A stretch of DNA of 53,644 nucleotides from Acidobacteriaceae bacterium (GTDB taxonomy: Bacteria; Acidobacteriota; Terriglobia; Terriglobales; Acidobacteriaceae): the NCBI GenBank assembly GCA_003160215.1, contig PLQW01000191.1:49009-102652 (forward strand), read 5' to 3'. The notes beneath the pieces were generated by a model that was not told where the DNA came from, made no database searches, and saw nothing but the letters and a program-made list of their open reading frames with translations. Of this stretch, positions 14,463 to 19,889 are shown in pieces. The position numbers and the translations under genes are program-made. How positions within the stretch are numbered: position 1 is the first letter of the stretch; each line of letters starts with the position of its first letter.

Positions 14463-14463
14463 T

Positions 14464-14481
14464 TTGCACGTTTTTGTGCAA
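14464..14481. promoter_or_regulatory. Third TTGCAC palindrome, directly after satD-like stop
   Basis: TTGCACGTTTTTGTGCAA begins one base after the TGA. It differs from the upstream operators at a single position. Before the insertion described below it would have sat 23 bases ahead of the DUF3307 start codon, a good place for an operator inside a two-gene unit. Confidence 0.65.
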
Positions 14482-14495
14482 AAATCATCTTTTTG

Positions 14496-14507
14496 CATCC
14501 TGCTATG
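14496..14507. repeat. Left target-site duplication of the 5.4-kb element
   Basis: CATCCTGCTATG, identical to 19878-19889. The ATG at its end corresponds to the start codon of the DUF3307 gene. Joining sequence left of here to sequence right of 19889 gives TTTTGCAT-CCTGCT-ATGCAAAA, a perfect palindrome centred on the duplicated bases. Confidence 0.8.
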
Positions 14508-14600
14508 GCTTTGCACAAAATCGCCCGAAAGTGTTACACGAAAGTGTGCCTTGCGGCGAGTATTTGTGCAGCCCGCCGAATTCTCCCGACTTATTGTGCA
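14508..14600 (+). repeat. Left end of element with subterminal repeats
   Basis: Terminal GCTTTGCACA (14508-14517), then TTTGTGCA (14563-14570) and ATTGTGCA (14593-14600) in the opposite orientation. Both internal copies are followed by G, as in the other ends (TTTGTGCAG, ATTGTGCAG). Multiple end motifs of this sort are usual transposase-binding sites. The intervening bases contain no gene. Confidence 0.65.
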
Positions 14601-14645
14601 GGAATCGGAGGGGGCTATGATGTGCGAGAGGGAGGACTCCGGGCG

Positions 14646-14963
14646 ATGCGCATTCTTAGGGTCATCGGCGCAGTGCTGGTCGCGGTGGCCACGGTGGTGG
14701 GCGGTGTTGTGGCGTTCCTCACGTGGCGGGGCGTCAAGCCGAAGGACTTGCGCATGACCTGGCATTGGTTGTGGCTGGCGCTCGCTCTCGCGTTGCTTAC
14801 CTGTGGCGCAGGCTCGTTCCGCTTGCTGGTGAAGTACGTCAGGGAGGACATAGTGGTCGCTCGGCAAAGGAAAGCGGAACGGATTGCCGCCGCCCGCGCC
14901 GTGCGTACCGAGATGGAGCGGAGATACTTCGGTCTGCTGGAGCGTATGTTCAAGCGGCGCTAG
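14646..14963 (+). CDS. Small two-helix membrane protein
   Basis: 105-aa protein with two hydrophobic segments, about residues 5-25 (VIGAVLVAVATVVGGVVAF) and 40-62, followed by a very basic, Arg-rich C-terminal tail (RQRKAERIAAARAVRTEMER). GGGAGGA lies about nine bases before the ATG. The stop overlaps by three bases the converging transposase gene. I do not recognise the family. As the first cargo gene after the left end of unit 1 it occupies the position held by the Ntn hydrolase in unit 2. An in-frame extension upstream runs into the element end and is unlikely to be translated. Confidence 0.5.
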   Translation: MRILRVIGAVLVAVATVVGGVVAFLTWRGVKPKDLRMTWHWLWLALALALLTCGAGSFRLLVKYVREDIVVARQRKAERIAAARAVRTEMERRYFGLLERMFKRR

Positions 14964-16183
14964 GCCACGCAGTTCCAGAAAACGGGGTCGATGCCGAGTT
15001 CGTACATTTCGTGGATGAGCACTACCAGATTATGACAGAGCACCTTACAAAGCGTCTCGTTGACCATCGCCACATCGCTCTTGCTGCGCAGCGAGTCGCC
15101 GAACTTGCGCTTCATCATGCTGAAGGTGGACTCCACGTTCGACCGCTTGTGGTAGTGCGCGAGGTATTCGTCCCGCTTGAACATGAAGTAATGGTACATC
15201 TGCTCGAACGTCCCGCCCGCCTTGCCGGTCGCCGAGCCCTTGAACGCAATGAACGGGGTGCCTCCGGCTTTGGTAACAGCGTCCGTGTTGGAGAGGCTGC
15301 CGTAAGCCTTGTCCGCCGAAACCTCCGCGATGGAGAAATTCTCGGCGGTCGTCTTGACCATCGGCGCGAGCATCAGCGTGTCGTTCGTGTACATCCCTTC
15401 GATTTCCACGGCGGTCACGATGTTCGTTTTGACTCCGCACATGAGATGGCACTTGACCCAATCCTGCTTGACGTGCTTTTCGCCGTACTTCACGTCATAC
15501 CAGCGGGTGAAGCGGGATGCTGCGAAACCGGAGGAATCGACCGCGAAGCTGGTTTCAACGCTCTGGAGCGGGCGGCTGCTCTGCACGATGAGGCCGCGCA
15601 GGACGGGCGTCATGTTGGCGTTGTCGAGGTAGTTCAAAATCGAGTTGAAGTGGGGCAGCTTGGAGACGTAGCCGCGTGCTTGCGCCTCGCGCAGGTCGGA
15701 TATGAATCGCCTTGCGCTGAACGTCGAGTACACCTTGAACGCCGCGCTGAAGATGGCGTCGGAAATGGGCAGGGGCGGACGGCCAAGTCTCCGCACCCGC
15801 GGCTCGGCAACGCCACGGCACAGGTCGAACAGCAGGGCTTGGAACTTGTCCTTCTCGTTGGTCTGTGCGGCGTTGTAGGCAGACCATACTTGGGGATACG
15901 TGACCCGCTTTGTGGCCGTAAATGTGGCGGTCTCCGTTACTGTGGTGCTGCCGTCGGCATTTTGTTCACGTCGCATAACGTAGATGGCCGCGTAGATGTG
16001 CTTGCAGTTCCGGTGGCGCGCCTCGTAGTCGGGGCAGGAGCACTCGGGGTTTGTCTCGGCCAGATGCCTGACCGCATAGACGCCCTTGCCGCTCTGCGAC
16101 GGCACAAGCCAGCAATCGCCGTGCCGCTGAATCCTCTTTGTGGCCGCCAGTACGATTCCGCGCTGCTCTCTCAGGTCTTCCAT
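14960..16183 (-). CDS. SWIM zinc-finger DDE transposase
   Basis: 407-aa transposase. A SWIM-type zinc motif lies near the N-terminus (CSCPDYEARHRNCKH, about 49-63). It precedes an RNase-H-like DDE domain with FAVDSSGF (first Asp), SADKAYGS (second Asp) and SNVESTFSMMKRKFG (Glu), an IS4/IS5-type arrangement. It looks intact: no frameshift, full catalytic set, AGAGAGG five bases before the ATG and a near-consensus promoter. It is the only recombinase in the element and probably acts on the GCTTTGCACA ends, although this is not proven. The long ORF on the opposite strand is a shadow. Confidence 0.88.
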   Translation of the reverse strand: MEDLREQRGIVLAATKRIQRHGDCWLVPSQSGKGVYAVRHLAETNPECSCPDYEARHRNCKHIYAAIYVMRREQNADGSTTVTETATFTATKRVTYPQVWSAYNAAQTNEKDKFQALLFDLCRGVAEPRVRRLGRPPLPISDAIFSAAFKVYSTFSARRFISDLREAQARGYVSKLPHFNSILNYLDNANMTPVLRGLIVQSSRPLQSVETSFAVDSSGFAASRFTRWYDVKYGEKHVKQDWVKCHLMCGVKTNIVTAVEIEGMYTNDTLMLAPMVKTTAENFSIAEVSADKAYGSLSNTDAVTKAGGTPFIAFKGSATGKAGGTFEQMYHYFMFKRDEYLAHYHKRSNVESTFSMMKRKFGDSLRSKSDVAMVNETLCKVLCHNLVVLIHEMYELGIDPVFWNCVA

Positions 16184-16207
16184 AAGTGCCTCTCTTACCT
16201 GAGAACT

Positions 16208-16296
16208 ATATTACTAATTAGGTATATACTTGTCAAGGAAATAAGGAGAGAAGCCGAAGATTATTCCCTTGACAGTAATACCCTACTTGGTATATA
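16208..16296. promoter_or_regulatory. Divergent near-consensus sigma-70 promoters
   Basis: Minus strand: TTGACA (complement of 16231-16236), 17-base spacer, TAATAT (complement of 16208-16213), serving the transposase. Plus strand: TTGACA (16269-16274), 16-base spacer, TATATA (16291-16296), serving the zinc-ribbon gene. The two -35 boxes lie within a 14-bp inverted repeat with one mismatch (16231-16244, 16261-16274). The palindrome GTATATAC occurs twice (16222-16229, 16290-16297), overlapping the spacer of one promoter and the -10 of the other, and looks like an operator. Confidence 0.75.
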
Positions 16297-16307
16297 CGTA
16301 GTTACGT

Positions 16308-16469
16308 ATGGTACTAACGACACTAAAACTCAAGGGCTACCGCTGCACGCGCTGCGGGCACGAGTGGGTGCCACGCAAGAATCGCGCGACCGAACCGCGC
16401 GTTTGTCCGAGGTGCAAGTCGCCCTATTGGAATCGCCCCCGCAAACTGAAGAAGTCCAAGAACGCATGA
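16308..16469 (+). CDS. Small zinc-ribbon protein
   Basis: 53-aa protein with two CxxC pairs (CTRCGHEW at 13-20 and CPRCKSPYW at 33-41), a compact zinc ribbon of a widespread type, and a Lys-rich tail (RPRKLKKSKNA). It may bind nucleic acid or regulate the transposase; no function is established. The ATG begins only about 12 bases after the -10 box, so its mRNA would be leaderless or nearly so, and no Shine-Dalgarno sequence is present. A second copy of just its C-terminal tail sits at 18383-18421 in unit 2. Confidence 0.75.
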   Translation: MVLTTLKLKGYRCTRCGHEWVPRKNRATEPRVCPRCKSPYWNRPRKLKKSKNA

Positions 16470-16510
16470 CCGGACTTCGCAACTTTGCTCGGGCACGTTT
16501 CGATGCAATG

Positions 16511-16586
16511 TGGTGGAGGCGACCCGACTCGAACGGGCATCCCGCGATATCTCAGACCGCTGCTCTACCAGTTGAGCTACGCCCCC
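16511..16586 (-). tRNA. tRNA with GAG anticodon, class I fold, encoded CCA
   Basis: A canonical 76-nt cloverleaf reads on the minus strand: acceptor GGGGGCG/CGCCTCC (one G-U), D arm GCTC/GAGC with GG at 18-19, anticodon stem GCGGT/ATCGC, loop CTGAGAT (anticodon GAG), five-base variable loop, T arm GCCCG-TTCGAGT-CGGGT, discriminator A and genomic CCA. GAG decodes the Leu codon CTC. Bacterial leucine tRNAs have a long variable arm, which is absent, so charging identity is doubtful. It lies within the mobile element beside a conserved structured RNA. Confidence 0.8.
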
Positions 16587-16639
16587 ATCGCTGCCGCATC
16601 GGAAATGGCGGAGGCACCACCTCCGCCAGCGACAAGAGA

Positions 16640-16721
16640 GGCCAGACGTTTTGCGCTTGCCTGTCACAGCAAGAGCGCAGGACTCTGGCCCCTCTACTAC
16701 ATGATAGGAATTTGCGTGGAG
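16640..16721. ncRNA. Conserved 82-nt structured RNA element, copy 1
   Basis: Predicted folds: outer stem GGCCAGA (16640-16646) with TCTGGCC (16684-16690); inner stem TGCGCTTGC (16652-16660) with GCAAGAGCGCA (16669-16679, GA bulge); second hairpin CTCTAC (16692-16697) with GTGGAG (16716-16721). Copy 2 at 18560-18641 has the same length with 75 of 82 bases identical. All changes are in loops or swap A-U for G-U in the last stem. It lies about 135 bases ahead of an exported-protein gene and could be its leader; the active strand is not certain. Confidence 0.55.
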
Positions 16722-16855
16722 CTTATTTCTGAGGCGTGCTTAACGAGAATACGGATTCTAAGCAATGTGCGCTGGAAGGCCCGTAAATAGAGGGCTTCAG
16801 AGCACGAAGAAAATGAAACGGTGGGTGCGGAATTAGCGCGAGCGGAGAATTTTCT

Positions 16856-17275
16856 ATGAAACGCAAGACTGCTGTGCAAGCCGGATTGCTGTTTGTCATT
16901 TGCGCTGTGATGTGCAGTGTGATGCTGAATGCGAGCAATATCAGCAAGACGGCGACATTCAAGGGTACTTCCGATCAGGTGTTCAACGCCGCTGTCAAGG
17001 TCGCGCAGCTAAAATGGCACGTGACGTTCCTTGACCGCGAAACGAAAACGCTGAGCTTTCACGACTTTCCGACGATAGGGGATGTCGCGTGCAGCGTCGT
17101 GGTTGATGACTCGTATGGCGATTTAGTTCTTGTGACGCTGGGGATGCAGGCACGAAGTTCGGATGGGCGGGGCGTGATGGCGCTGGAAGTGGGGGAGGAA
17201 ATCGCTTCCCAATTCTTTAAGGGGATAGAAGCTGAACTTTCAAGGCAGGCGAAGTTGGCGAAGCAGCCGCACTAG
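16856..17275 (+). CDS. Exported protein of unknown function, unit 1
   Basis: 139-aa protein with a signal peptide (LLFVICAVMCSVMLNA, about residues 11-26) and a mature domain of about 110 residues with alternating beta strands (TATFKGTSDQVFNAAVKVAQ, LVLVTLGMQ). It has the look of a small periplasmic domain. GGAGA sits seven bases before the ATG. The gene lies downstream of the structured RNA and ends before a strong terminator. I cannot assign a family. Its counterpart in unit 2 (18757-19398) occupies the same slot but is not similar in its mature part. Confidence 0.7.
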   Translation: MKRKTAVQAGLLFVICAVMCSVMLNASNISKTATFKGTSDQVFNAAVKVAQLKWHVTFLDRETKTLSFHDFPTIGDVACSVVVDDSYGDLVLVTLGMQARSSDGRGVMALEVGEEIASQFFKGIEAELSRQAKLAKQPH

Positions 17276-17299
17276 GTCACTTTTTGACACGTAGGAACA

Positions 17300-17324
17300 G
17301 CCCGCCACATGGCGGGCCTTTTTC
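17300..17324 (+). terminator. Rho-independent terminator, unit 1
   Basis: GCCCGCC (17300-17306), loop ACAT, GGCGGGC (17311-17317), then CTTTTTC. Flanking bases match the unit 2 terminator at 19419 (AGAACAG or GGAACAG before, TTTTTCATTTTGCGA after), so the whole module was copied. Confidence 0.9.
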
Positions 17325-17340
17325 ATTTTGCGAGGGAACT

Positions 17341-17372
17341 ATGGCTAAGGCAGTAAAGGGCGACAGTCAAGG
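17341..17372 (+). pseudogene. Possible gene start cut off by the internal left end
   Basis: ATGGCTAAGGCAGTAAAGGG opens MAKAVKGDSQG after GAGGGA, and the frame then runs into the GCTTTGCACA end at 17373. If real, it is the first 10-11 codons of a unit 1 gene truncated when unit 2 joined. No continuation was found on the far side. Weak evidence. Confidence 0.25.
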
Positions 17373-17444
17373 GCTTTGCACAAGAAGGCCCGGAAAGGGC
17401 CGGTGTGCTGTGACTTTTTGTGCAGCCTCTGGACTTCTTGTGCA
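17373..17444 (+). repeat. Internal left end (start of unit 2)
   Basis: GCTTTGCACA (17373-17382) is identical to the terminal repeat at 14508. It is followed by TTTTTGTGCAG (17415-17425) and TTCTTGTGCAG (17435-17445), 20 bases apart, the same order and orientation as the outer left end. The matching right end would be the one at 19868. Confidence 0.65.
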
Positions 17445-17481
17445 GGCACGGCTCGGGCAGGGTTGGCGGAGGGGGTGTTAA

Positions 17482-18381
17482 ATGGTACGGACACTTCCGA
17501 AGCCGCACCCAAAGTTGGAGCGGCCAAAGGCGAAAAACATGACCTTGGTTGCGGGATTCAAATGTAGAGATGGCTTCGTCGTTGCCGCCGACACGGAGAT
17601 CACTTACGGAGCGGTGCGGTTTCAGGGGCACAAGCTTGCCAAGTACTACGGTCAAAGCAAGTCGTACGACATCATTATTGGAGGGGCGGGCGATGGAGTC
17701 TACATTGACGCGGTGTGCCAAAAGATTAGGGATGCTGTTTCCGCACTTTCCCAGCCGACGCTCGCGAATATCAAAGATGCGGTGGAGAAAGTAATCGCCG
17801 CCGTACACAGCGACTCAATTTTCAAGTACTGGAAACCGGATGACCCTGACCGTCCCTTTGTGCAACTCGTTTGCGGTATCCAAGACGGACAAAAGGATTG
17901 GGGTCTGCTGCAAACGGATAGAGATGCCTTGGCAGAGGCAGACGACCATGCTGTGGCCGGAAGCGGCTCTATATTGGCCGAGTACTTGATTGAGAAGATG
18001 TGGATTCCCGGACTCTCGACAGCGGTTACAGTCCATTTAGCTCGTCAGTTGTTTCGGGAGGTCAAGACTAAGGGGTCATACGTTGGGGGGAATACAGAAA
18101 TAATAGGGCGGCGCGTGACTAAAGACGCGGAGCAGTTCTTCGATGTTGCGGAGGAAGACTACAGGTTCTTGTGGGGCATCGACGAACTTATGCTTAGTGG
18201 CGTCAGAGTTGCTTTGGACTACACCAAATCGCCGCAATTGGTGCTCAACAGAATTGAGGAGATCACTGCAAGGCTGAAGAAAATACGGGAGAGCAGTGAG
18301 AAGCCACGTCCTCCCAAGGGCGATACATTAAGGCTCACCGAATTCGGAAGCGAGTACGGTGACTGGTTCAAGGATTACTAG
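17482..18381 (+). CDS. Orphan proteasome-like Ntn hydrolase
   Basis: 299-aa protein of the proteasome-beta/HslV superfamily. After residue 20 (Met) the sequence reads TLVAGFKCRDGFVVAADTE. Numbering from that Thr gives Thr1 and Asp17, the conserved proteasome positions, with Lys31 or Lys34 near the usual Lys33. GGAGGGGG precedes the ATG at 17482, so residues 1-20 could be a propeptide; an internal ATG at 17539 would expose Thr directly after Met removal. The C-terminal 80 residues are mostly helical. No ATPase or alpha subunit is nearby. Its location as cargo in a mobile element suggests a self-contained protease with an unknown target. Confidence 0.75.
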   Translation: MVRTLPKPHPKLERPKAKNMTLVAGFKCRDGFVVAADTEITYGAVRFQGHKLAKYYGQSKSYDIIIGGAGDGVYIDAVCQKIRDAVSALSQPTLANIKDAVEKVIAAVHSDSIFKYWKPDDPDRPFVQLVCGIQDGQKDWGLLQTDRDALAEADDHAVAGSGSILAEYLIEKMWIPGLSTAVTVHLARQLFREVKTKGSYVGGNTEIIGRRVTKDAEQFFDVAEEDYRFLWGIDELMLSGVRVALDYTKSPQLVLNRIEEITARLKKIRESSEKPRPPKGDTLRLTEFGSEYGDWFKDY

Positions 18382-18382
18382 G

Positions 18383-18421
18383 CCAAAGCCTCGCAAGTTG
18401 AAGAAGGCGAAGAAGGCATGA
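18383..18421 (+). pseudogene. Zinc-ribbon gene remnant (C-terminal tail only)
   Basis: Directly after the Ntn hydrolase stop, codons for KPRKLKKAKKA and a stop match the tail RPRKLKKSKNA of the zinc-ribbon gene at 16308-16469. The zinc ribbon itself is missing. This shows that unit 2 lost the transposase and most of the zinc-ribbon gene, replaced by the hydrolase gene. Confidence 0.65.
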
Positions 18422-18462
18422 TTCACCTCGGTGAACTAGCGCGAGCAGGTTGCGATACGGTG

Positions 18463-18543
18463 TTGTGGAGACCGGAGCCGGAGTCGAACCGGATGGACAG
18501 CCGTTGCAAAGGGTGCTCCGTTCCGCACGGAACTCCGGTCTCC
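18463..18543 (-). other. tRNA-like sequence, unit 2
   Basis: At the position of the unit 1 tRNA, the minus strand has a good T-arm (CCGG-TTCGACT-CCGG) but an 11-bp acceptor-like stem, GGAGACCGGAG with CTCCGGTCTCC (ends 18467 and 18543), and no convincing D or anticodon stem (TTTGCAA loop unpaired). No CCA follows. It is a decayed or non-standard tRNA, or a tRNA mimic. The rest of 18382-18756 holds only the tail remnant and RNA copy 2. Confidence 0.35.
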
Positions 18544-18559
18544 GTCAGCAATACGAAGA

Positions 18560-18641
18560 GGCCAGACGTTTTGCGCTTGCCCATCACAGCAAGAGCGCAC
18601 ACTTCTGGCCCCTCTACTACATGATAGGAATTTGCGTAGAG
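18560..18641. ncRNA. Conserved 82-nt structured RNA element, copy 2
   Basis: Same fold as 16640-16721: GGCCAGA (18560-18566) with TCTGGCC (18604-18610), the inner TGCGCTTGC with GCAAGAGCGCA stem, and CTCTAC (18612-18617) with GTAGAG (18636-18641). Similarity continues more weakly to about 18700. It precedes the exported-protein gene by about 115 bases. Confidence 0.55.
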
Positions 18642-18756
18642 CATTTTCTGAGGTGTGCTTAACGAGAAATGCGGATTCTAAGCAGATGTGCCGAGAACCC
18701 TTATCAGGAGCGGGCTTTTCGAGCGCAGAGAAAATGAAAGGCTGGGTGCGTAATTG

Positions 18757-19398
18757 ATGCAGGCTGAGAATTTTCTTGTTGCGGAGCAACTTCAATGGCG
18801 GAAGGTGTTTGGATTGCTGGCCCTGTTGGTGCTTGCGACGATTGTGGGCGCGCAGCAGCAGAAGTCGCCGTCCGTTAAGGCTGGAGTCGTGTCTGGCTCT
18901 GTGTTTCTCATCACGAAAAGTGGCGACCTGAAACCAGCGAGGATGGCGGATGTCTATTTGCTCTACCTATACCGCAGCGTGAAAGTGGCGAACGCAAATC
19001 CGGAAGATGCGGATTCCGCCGGTCATGCTTGGATGGATAACTACAACAAGGTTATGGAAGAGTTCCTGAAGGTGTTTGCATCACCGGAGGGAATGGCTTG
19101 GAGCGACAAGCTGGCGTGCCTTAAGCACTTGCAGAATTACCAAGATGCCTTGTCTCAAACACGGGATTGGGCGTCGGCAAAACATAAGGGTTGGCAGATA
19201 CTCATAACCGAGACTGATGAAAACGGGGTGTTCAGGATCGCCGTCCCCCATCCGGGGGAATACAGCATACTCGCAAGCGGGCGCGCAGGATTTAATGATG
19301 CTTTTTGGGTAGTCGATGCTCCCGGCATCATTGTCAATCCGGGGGCGACTACGACTGTGAAGTTGTCATCACCCGCAAAATCCTGCTTGGCAGACTGA
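18757..19398 (+). CDS. Exported protein with carboxypeptidase-regulatory-like fold, unit 2
   Basis: 213-aa protein. A hydrophobic stretch at about 17-32 (VFGLLALLVLATIVGAQ) is a signal peptide. The mature part begins GSVFLITKSGDLKPARMADV and ends with TETDENGVFRIAVPHPGEY, a pattern typical of carboxypeptidase-regulatory (prealbumin-like) domains that bind or coat surfaces. A helical insert lies between. ATG at 18757 has only a distant GAAAGG, so the start is uncertain. It lies between structured RNA copy 2 and a terminator identical in type to that of unit 1. Confidence 0.65.
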   Translation: MQAENFLVAEQLQWRKVFGLLALLVLATIVGAQQQKSPSVKAGVVSGSVFLITKSGDLKPARMADVYLLYLYRSVKVANANPEDADSAGHAWMDNYNKVMEEFLKVFASPEGMAWSDKLACLKHLQNYQDALSQTRDWASAKHKGWQILITETDENGVFRIAVPHPGEYSILASGRAGFNDAFWVVDAPGIIVNPGATTTVKLSSPAKSCLAD

Positions 19399-19418
19399 GG
19401 TTTTGACGTATAAGAACA

Positions 19419-19443
19419 GCCCGCCGTGCAGCGGGCCTTTTTC
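19419..19443 (+). terminator. Rho-independent terminator, unit 2
   Basis: GCCCGC (19419-19424), a six-base loop, GCGGGC (19431-19436), then CTTTTTC. The stem and flanks are a diverged copy of the unit 1 terminator. Confidence 0.88.
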
Positions 19444-19524
19444 ATTTTGCGAAAAGGTGTGAAATGCCCGAATCAAATTCAAAACAGCGGGGGTGGGGCC
19501 ACATGACTCCCGAGCAAGTTGAAT

Positions 19525-19803
19525 TCATAAACCGAACGCCTTTTCCGAAAGGGCCGTTTGGTCTAGATGCTCGCTCCCGGCGACGAGTGCTTGGATTTGG
19601 GCAAAGGATAGAAATACTAGGAATGTTTTTGGAAACGCTGGGACGTTGCCTTGTGCGAGTAGCCAATCTGTGAAGTGCTGGCTTTCGACCCAGATGCCGC
19701 TGATTTCGACATCGTGGAGCGTGAACTGCTGCCACTCGTCGGGCTGGAGGAACGACACCTTTACAAGGACGGTCTTGCCGACCAGATGCTGAAGTCGAGG
19801 CAT
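19525..19803 (-). CDS. Hypothetical 92-aa protein next to right end
   Basis: Minus-strand ORF starting ATG at 19803 (TTG at 19809 also possible). The sequence has a natural composition with beta-strand character (GKTVLVKVSFLQPDEWQQF, HDVEISGIWVES) and a helical end. No family is recognised. Its 5' end is 13 bases from the first TTTTTGTGCA of the right end, so its promoter would overlap the transposase sites. A plus-strand ORF at 19464-19673 overlaps it and follows a weak ribosome site; I consider the minus ORF more protein-like. Confidence 0.5.
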   Translation of the reverse strand: MPRLQHLVGKTVLVKVSFLQPDEWQQFTLHDVEISGIWVESQHFTDWLLAQGNVPAFPKTFLVFLSFAQIQALVAGSEHLDQTALSEKAFGL

Positions 19804-19815
19804 GAGCAATTATAC

Positions 19816-19877
19816 TTTTTGTGCAGGACAGGGAGTTTTTGTGCAATGGAGGGGAACTTGAACTTAATGTGCAAAGC
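19816..19877 (-). repeat. Right end of element with subterminal repeats
   Basis: TTTTTGTGCA at 19816-19825 and 19836-19845 (20 bases apart) and terminal TGTGCAAAGC (19868-19877), the exact complement of the left terminal repeat. Confidence 0.65.
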
Positions 19878-19889
19878 CATCCTGCTATG
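19878..19889. repeat. Right target-site duplication
   Basis: CATCCTGCTATG, matching 14496-14507. Its last three bases are the start codon of the DUF3307 gene. Confidence 0.8.

Follow-up and report, generated by a model that had tools for sequence, protein, structure and literature searches.

Phages carry transfer RNA (tRNA) genes, and passenger-carrying insertion sequences ("tIS") combine a single transposase with accessory genes between ends like those of an insertion sequence (IS); we know of no tIS in which tRNA genes are a conserved passenger. Among simple elements, those of the IS903 group are about 1.05 kb long, end in GGCTTTGTTGCACAAA-type repeats, and duplicate 9 bp of their target (PMC6382973, PMC3281130). 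Allo-tRNAs (Mukai et al. 2017, via PMC7609411) occur in Acidobacteria, an Edaphobacter allo-tRNA pseudogene overlaps a transposon-related open reading frame (ORF), forest and peat soil metatranscriptomes contain tandem irregular tRNAs, and an involvement of transposons or of toxin-antitoxin systems has been suspected in review (PMC7609411). Allo-tRNAs insert Ser in E. coli, and some from soil are not aminoacylated by the E. coli enzymes (PMC7609411). The allo-tRNAs and tandem transcripts of the soil data had no known genomic home or purpose. We analyzed a 53,644-nucleotide stretch of DNA, hereafter the window, from an Acidobacteriaceae bacterium (GCA_003160215.1, contig PLQW01000191.1, positions 49,009 to 102,652), of which positions 14507-19878 are almost certainly a transposon. 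It belongs to an acidobacterial clade that, with high confidence, conserves a slot for tRNA genes. Our reading, which is tentative and falls somewhat short of probable, is that the slot holds interchangeable mis-assigned tRNAs that would be charged and would alter translation or block tRNA-cutting attackers, and that the orphan allo-tRNAs of soil have their native home in these transposons. Acidobacterial irregular tRNAs are now tied to a concrete mobile element with ends, a transposase, and a probable regulator, making their expression, charging, and benefit testable.

The original prediction, made from the window alone, described a mobile element with 10-bp terminal repeats and a 12-bp target duplication that splits a pair of SatD and DUF3307 genes. 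The 12-mer CATCCTGCTATG indeed had exactly two copies, at 14496-14507 and 19878-19889 of the window, and was found in 0 of 100 shuffles, while the inverted 10-mer GCTTTGCACA was located at 14508-14517 with its complement at 19868-19877. As the 10-mer alone is no commoner than chance (4 observed versus 4.06 expected in the window with one mismatch allowed), the evidence for an element is its pairing with the duplication; a third exact copy lies at 17373 (+ strand). The pairing held but the lengths had to be revised. Comparison with relatives having both ends placed the element at 14507-19878 (5,372 bp), with an 11-bp terminal repeat GGCTTTGCACA (14507-14517 on the + strand at the transposase side, 19868-19878 on the - strand at the passenger side) and a 10-bp duplication ATCCTGCTAT (14497-14506 and 19879-19888), since the GG..CC part belongs to the element in those relatives.

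When the flanks were rejoined in silico, they gave the foreseen palindrome, TTTTGCAT-CCTGCT-ATGCAAAA, and the SatD stop (14462) lay 42 bp ahead of the DUF3307 ATG (14505), again as predicted; both gene assignments are backed by Pfam. The right-hand copy of the duplication restores this ATG (19887-19889), and the downstream gene is thus still readable. We then used 588 bp of joined flanks, with the junction near position 347, as a probe for the empty site. It gave a single-piece match in one same-genus genome (G004, locus L059), covering probe positions 10 to 517 with the junction included and aligning without gaps across it (TTTTTGCACTCCGCTATGCAAACCG versus TTTTTGCATCCTGCTATGCAAAACG), which makes the SatD-DUF3307 pair the older arrangement, later split by the mobile element. 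Beside the target, at 14463-14489, the host DNA contains an inverted repeat (TTTGCACG...GTGCAAA) that resembles the end motif of the element and is present in the empty site, too. Another congener (L096, G005:C31) retains an 84-bp remnant of the transposase 3' end, 88% identical, which indicates that the family was earlier present in the genus.

The search for other copies of the two ends, proposed with the original prediction, recovered paired ends and duplications around 19 further transposases and around L152, an additional member with the same anatomy (2,330 bp, 9-bp duplication AACACAGAC). All 20 elements (the window and the 19) begin with GGCTTTG, a shared start that is partly by construction because the search required GGCT or a near-identical inverted repeat beside a target duplication. 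The duplication was 9 bp long in 16 of the 20 and 10 bp in the window and three others, and the elements, passengers included, measured 2.3-6.7 kb. The two ends differ: on the passenger side there are usually three motifs in direct repeat, and on the transposase side usually the terminal motif and two further, mostly inverted, copies. In the window, the former contains two subterminal TTTTTGTGCA motifs (19816-19825 and 19836-19845, + strand) and the latter TTTGTGCAG (14563-14571) and TTGTGCAGG (14594-14602), both on the + strand and in opposite orientation to the terminal motif. A TGCNNN motif thus occurs about three times per end, and it (TGCACA, TGCCCA, TGCAAC, and TGTAAC among other variants) covaries with the terminal repeat of the same element. 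Matches to the element's own motif in subterminal DNA numbered 36, in comparison with 8.7 expected on permuting elements and a maximum of 27 in 10,000 permutations; as the sample includes some related elements, the figure should be taken as a guide and not as an exact probability. This is the pattern that a transposase-binding array would show, and the anatomy suggests such binding. A palindromic target was rejected as a rule of the group, strong palindromes being found only in the window, L008, L092, L013, and L095 among the 20.

The transposase (14960-16183, - strand, 407 amino acids) combines a SWIM zinc finger (residues 46-68) with a DDE_Tnp_1 domain (212-386), found in 9 and all of 12 members, respectively. 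It has invariant catalytic residues (D216, D291, and E351) and the spacing Y344-x2-R347-x3-E351-x6-K358. Its relatives come from Acidobacteria, Planctomycetota, Bradyrhizobium, a Thermoplasmatales archaeon, and many viral contigs, while a search for plasmid relatives gave none. A sequence search for solved-structure relatives also returned none, and a structure model of moderate quality (predicted local distance difference test, pLDDT, 71) weakly resembled the cores of Tn5 transposase and integrase. The original prediction knew of no named family joining these ends to a SWIM-DDE transposase. For the ends themselves, the IS903 group of IS5 (IS903, ISAba12, IS17, and IS Pam1) has counterparts: its repeat starts with GGCTTTG and contains TGCACAA, the duplication is 9 bp, and the transposase is of DDE_Tnp_1 type (PMC6382973, PMC3281130). 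The group described here differs in its larger size, passengers, and regulator, whereas the transposase fills the IS903-type element, and in its SWIM finger and multiple motif copies. The nearest curated IS5 model, NF033579, scored 103 bits against a cut-off of 140, and the remaining IS5 models scored lower. With a single transposase and accessory genes between IS-like ends, the window element resembles the tIS, and we consider it very likely to be a DDE transposon with passengers, from a distinct and poorly described group allied to the IS5 family. The group would work in the same way as IS903 elements, yet it is not to be filed as an IS5 member.

The original prediction read the insertion correctly but overlooked the internal end at 17372 and the tRNA genes. 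Using ARAGORN and a simple cloverleaf scan, we identified tRNA genes ~300-550 bp upstream of the transposase, and on its strand, in eight members (the window, L008, L009, L010, L011, L012, L092, and L152, the last read by eye and then folded). The slot lies between a hairpin and the gene of a divergent zinc-ribbon protein. In the window, the zinc ribbon (16308-16469, + strand, 53 amino acids; kept in 7/7 acidobacterial members examined) is followed by a tRNA gene with a 7/5 cloverleaf, anticodon GAG, and an encoded ACCA end (16511-16586, - strand), whose type-I body is nearest to host tRNA-Met, and by the hairpin (AGAGGCCAGA...TCTGGCCCCTCT; 16637-16695, - strand, z = -4.0). A second, irregular tRNA-like gene at 18466-18540 (- strand) has an 8-bp acceptor and a 4-bp T stem and ends in U73-CCA; it scored 24 bits on the tRNA-Sec model, below the cut-off. 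All eight carriers fall within one acidobacterial clade in transposase trees, with support of 100/97 and, after members were added, of 97/94 for 12 rows. In the other four rows the slot is truncated or interrupted upstream (L014 and L154) or holds a different, structured-looking sequence (L015 and L156), and ARAGORN found no tRNA in L093 and L095, acidobacterial elements outside the clade. The stretch that L015 and L156 have instead, 300-500 bp upstream of the transposase, is conserved and hairpin rich (TCATCGTGCTCATATAAGCACGA ...) and could be another noncoding RNA. A pattern built from the slot hairpin had two matches in 399 genomes of the class, both inside these elements, and no match to the hairpin or allo-tRNA patterns was found in the viral contigs searched. 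A scan with the Rfam tRNA-Sec model for allo-tRNA linkage gave matches in all 399 genomes, ordinary tRNAs included. In archaeal and planctomycete relatives (L018 and L016), tRNA-like genes lie 380-540 bp upstream of the transposase; as their element ends were not found, they were left out of the counts.

The contents of the slot vary, and in nearly all copies the tRNA body and the anticodon are mismatched. L008 carries a UGC tRNA and a 9/3 tRNA with GCA, L009 a 9/3 GCA, L092 a UUA and a 9/3 GCA, L012 an irregular tRNA and a 9/3 UAA, L010 a UUU and a remnant, L011 a Ser-like 7/5 GCA, and L152 a 7/5 tRNA with a long variable arm and GUC. The mismatches thus include 9/3 "allo-tRNAs" with GCA or UAA, Ser-like bodies with GCA or GUC, and Glu-like bodies with UGC, UUU, or UUA, and the mis-assigned types comprise allo-tRNAs, an ochre-suppressor-like tRNA, and Ser bodies with Cys or Asp anticodons. 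Compared with the slot tRNAs, the closest ones in the host of the window reach only 68-77% identity and often belong to another isotype; this host has its own canonical tRNA-Leu(GAG).

The likeness to the published allo-tRNAs includes the 9/3 or 8/4 shape, G73, the long variable arm, non-Ser anticodons, the occurrence in Acidobacteria and in tandem, and an overlap with a transposon-related ORF, noted once in review (PMC7609411). Stems of 9/3 are found in L008, L009, L012, and L092 and of 8/4 at 18466-18540 of the window, while the tRNAs at 16511-16586, L010, L011, and L152 are of type 7/5. By sequence, features of a putative Ser identity (G73 and a long variable arm) are combined with a non-Ser anticodon in L008, L009, L011, L012, L092, and L152 and in neither tRNA of the window. 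The 9/3 tRNAs scored 35-44 bits on the tRNA-Sec model (cut-off 47). Unlike published allo-tRNAs, these are found in a defined transposon slot with a hairpin, a zinc ribbon, and a transposase, and the window's own pair is not of full allo type. The element may explain the origin of some allo-tRNAs of soil bacteria. The phage-borne tRNA genes likewise reside on mobile DNA and may act on host translation or defense, but here the carrier is a DDE transposon, there are one or two tRNAs per element, and bodies and anticodons disagree.

The slot tRNAs mostly end in CCA and fold properly. Between the tRNAs of L092 and L012, 28 of 28 base pairs were kept and 5 had changed on both sides, while slid control frames paired at 41-54%; the compensatory changes suggest selection. 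L008 and L092 reside at the same orthologous site, with flanks 75% identical over 932 bp and the elements 74% identical, and the slot has apparently been long kept there. The site itself (L008:5923-6852 and the L092 flank, in different genomes) is an orthologous palindrome GCCACACTTCGTGGC, representing either an old shared insertion or a reused hot spot. Several observations weigh against our reading. The covariation comes from a two-sequence alignment, and 15 of 500 shuffles reached the observed values; the non-tRNA sequence in L015 and L156 shows that tRNAs are not strictly required, and elements outside the clade exist without them. The window tRNAs are not classical allo-tRNAs, one being 7/5 and the other 8/4 without a long variable arm, and the window's own genome, in which ends were searched for by pattern, holds one transposase copy only.

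Sister elements differ in their cargo. Many complete copies outside the tRNA clade carry restriction-modification genes, including a BglII-like nuclease with an N6_N4 methylase (L030), BstXI with a methylase (L045), a C5-methylase with HNH (L039), and methylases (L041, L046, L048, L049, and L035); the sample is biased, since the contigs that hold most of these copies are classed as viral. By analogy with this cargo, a defense-related role of the slot tRNAs is thinkable. The group, with ends like those of IS903 but larger, asymmetric, and multi-site, appears in its other branches as a frequent vehicle of defense genes.

The window copy contains two diverged copies of a cassette (zinc-ribbon tail, tRNA, hairpin, ORF, and terminator), A and B, that are 82% identical over ~240 nt on the hairpin side, 71% in the zinc-ribbon tail, and 83% in the terminators, whereas their tRNAs do not align past tRNA-level similarity. 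Unit B has a third end of transposase-side layout, GGCTTTGCACA (17372-17382), TTTTTGTGCAG (17415-17425), and TTGTGCAGG (17438-17446), all on the + strand. Where the transposase would sit, it has a 299-amino acid gene of the proteasome-type Ntn-hydrolase family (17482-18381, + strand; PF00227, 33 bits), followed by a zinc-ribbon remnant (18382-18420, + strand; C-terminal PRKLKKAKKA), the irregular tRNA, and a second hairpin (18557-18615, - strand; 90% identical over 91 nt to 16637-16727). In the window copy, an autonomous unit A (transposase, zinc ribbon, and tRNA) is fused to a transposase-less unit B with an internal end, and the perfect outer duplication spanning both indicates that the fused element moved as one. 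We rejected a composite transposon of two IS copies, there being one transposase, three ends, and no second IS. The internal end and duplicated cassette could also come from two independent insertions or an assembly join, but 17372-19878 has no flanking duplication of its own, which also led us to reject an independent nested insertion of unit B, and with the perfect outer duplication and the existing empty site we regard this as very improbable. A comparable partnerless transposase-type end (GGCTTTGCCCAGGAACC...) begins at L008:9270, directly after the target duplication of L008, with no partner end in the locus; this one-ended remnant beside a full element is like 17372 in the window.

The slot could hold host tRNA genes that were caught by chance and are now decaying. 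The degenerate slots (the second tRNA of L010 and unit B of the window) and the two members without tRNAs would fit such hitch-hiking, yet the slot, strand, and neighbors are the same in eight members of one clade, the compensatory changes kept all pairs, and the slot tRNAs are distant from their nearest counterparts in the window's host, making it quite unlikely. Only the tRNA shape would matter if the hairpin-tRNA block were a processing or insulation signal at which RNase P/Z cutting parts the passenger transcripts from the zinc-ribbon and transposase region. The block does sit between passenger and transposase, on the transposase strand and with a strong hairpin, and the anticodon is apparently free to vary; as such a signal has no need for CCA ends, long variable arms, or two tandem tRNAs, we consider it unlikely.

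Two further explanations place the function in the tRNA itself. As miscoding or suppressor tRNAs, bodies charged by the seryl- or glutamyl-tRNA synthetase (SerRS or GluRS) or others would read another codon (Cys, Lys, Asp, Leu, or the stop UAA), and the resulting statistical mistranslation or readthrough would benefit the element. This agrees with the mismatch of body and anticodon and with the similarity of the 9/3 bodies with G73 and non-Ser anticodons to allo-tRNAs inserting Ser in E. coli (PMC7609411). On the other hand, the element's own genes show no need for it, the transposase and zinc ribbon of L012 lacking UUA codons, and the failure of E. coli enzymes to charge some soil allo-tRNAs (PMC7609411) speaks against it, leaving the explanation possible but doubtful. 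We rejected, as not general, the idea that the element regulates itself by miscoding its own cysteine codons, the codon of the L012 tRNA being absent from both of these genes. As decoys, altered tRNAs would soak up tRNA-cleaving toxins or anticodon nucleases or withstand their attack, serving as defense or counter-defense cargo. The DNA methyltransferases and BglII-, BstXI-, and HNH-type nucleases of sister elements and the fast tRNA turnover inside an otherwise conserved slot are in line with this, but no linked anticodon nuclease was found, and decoys seem slightly less plausible still. Judged from sequence, we lean slightly toward one of these two explanations, miscoding or suppression on the one hand and decoys for tRNA-cutting enzymes on the other, over a role of the slot tRNAs as helpers of transposition, while any particular function is doubtful at best. 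The element inserted into the palindromic intergenic site between the satD-like and DUF3307 genes, making the 10-bp duplication. Judging by the anatomy, the transposase would bind the short TGCACAA-type motif, present in three copies per end, and would then cut and rejoin the ends through DDE chemistry, with a stagger of 9-10 bp. Its probable regulator is the divergent zinc-ribbon protein, and the slot tRNAs would be expressed as cargo and act in trans either on translation or on whatever attacks it.

The remaining genes of the window element are passengers. PADLOC found no defense family among the three window passengers that it was run on. A membrane-protein-like ORF of ~105 amino acids, without a confident family, is located at 14646-14963 (+ strand). 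Unit A also holds a signal-peptide-like ORF of 139 amino acids (16856-17275, + strand) and is closed by a terminator-like repeat (17282-17333, + strand), whose counterpart lies at 19401-19452. The latter follows the last ORF of unit B (18754-19398, + strand), which encodes 214 amino acids with a weak carboxypeptidase-regulatory-like signal.

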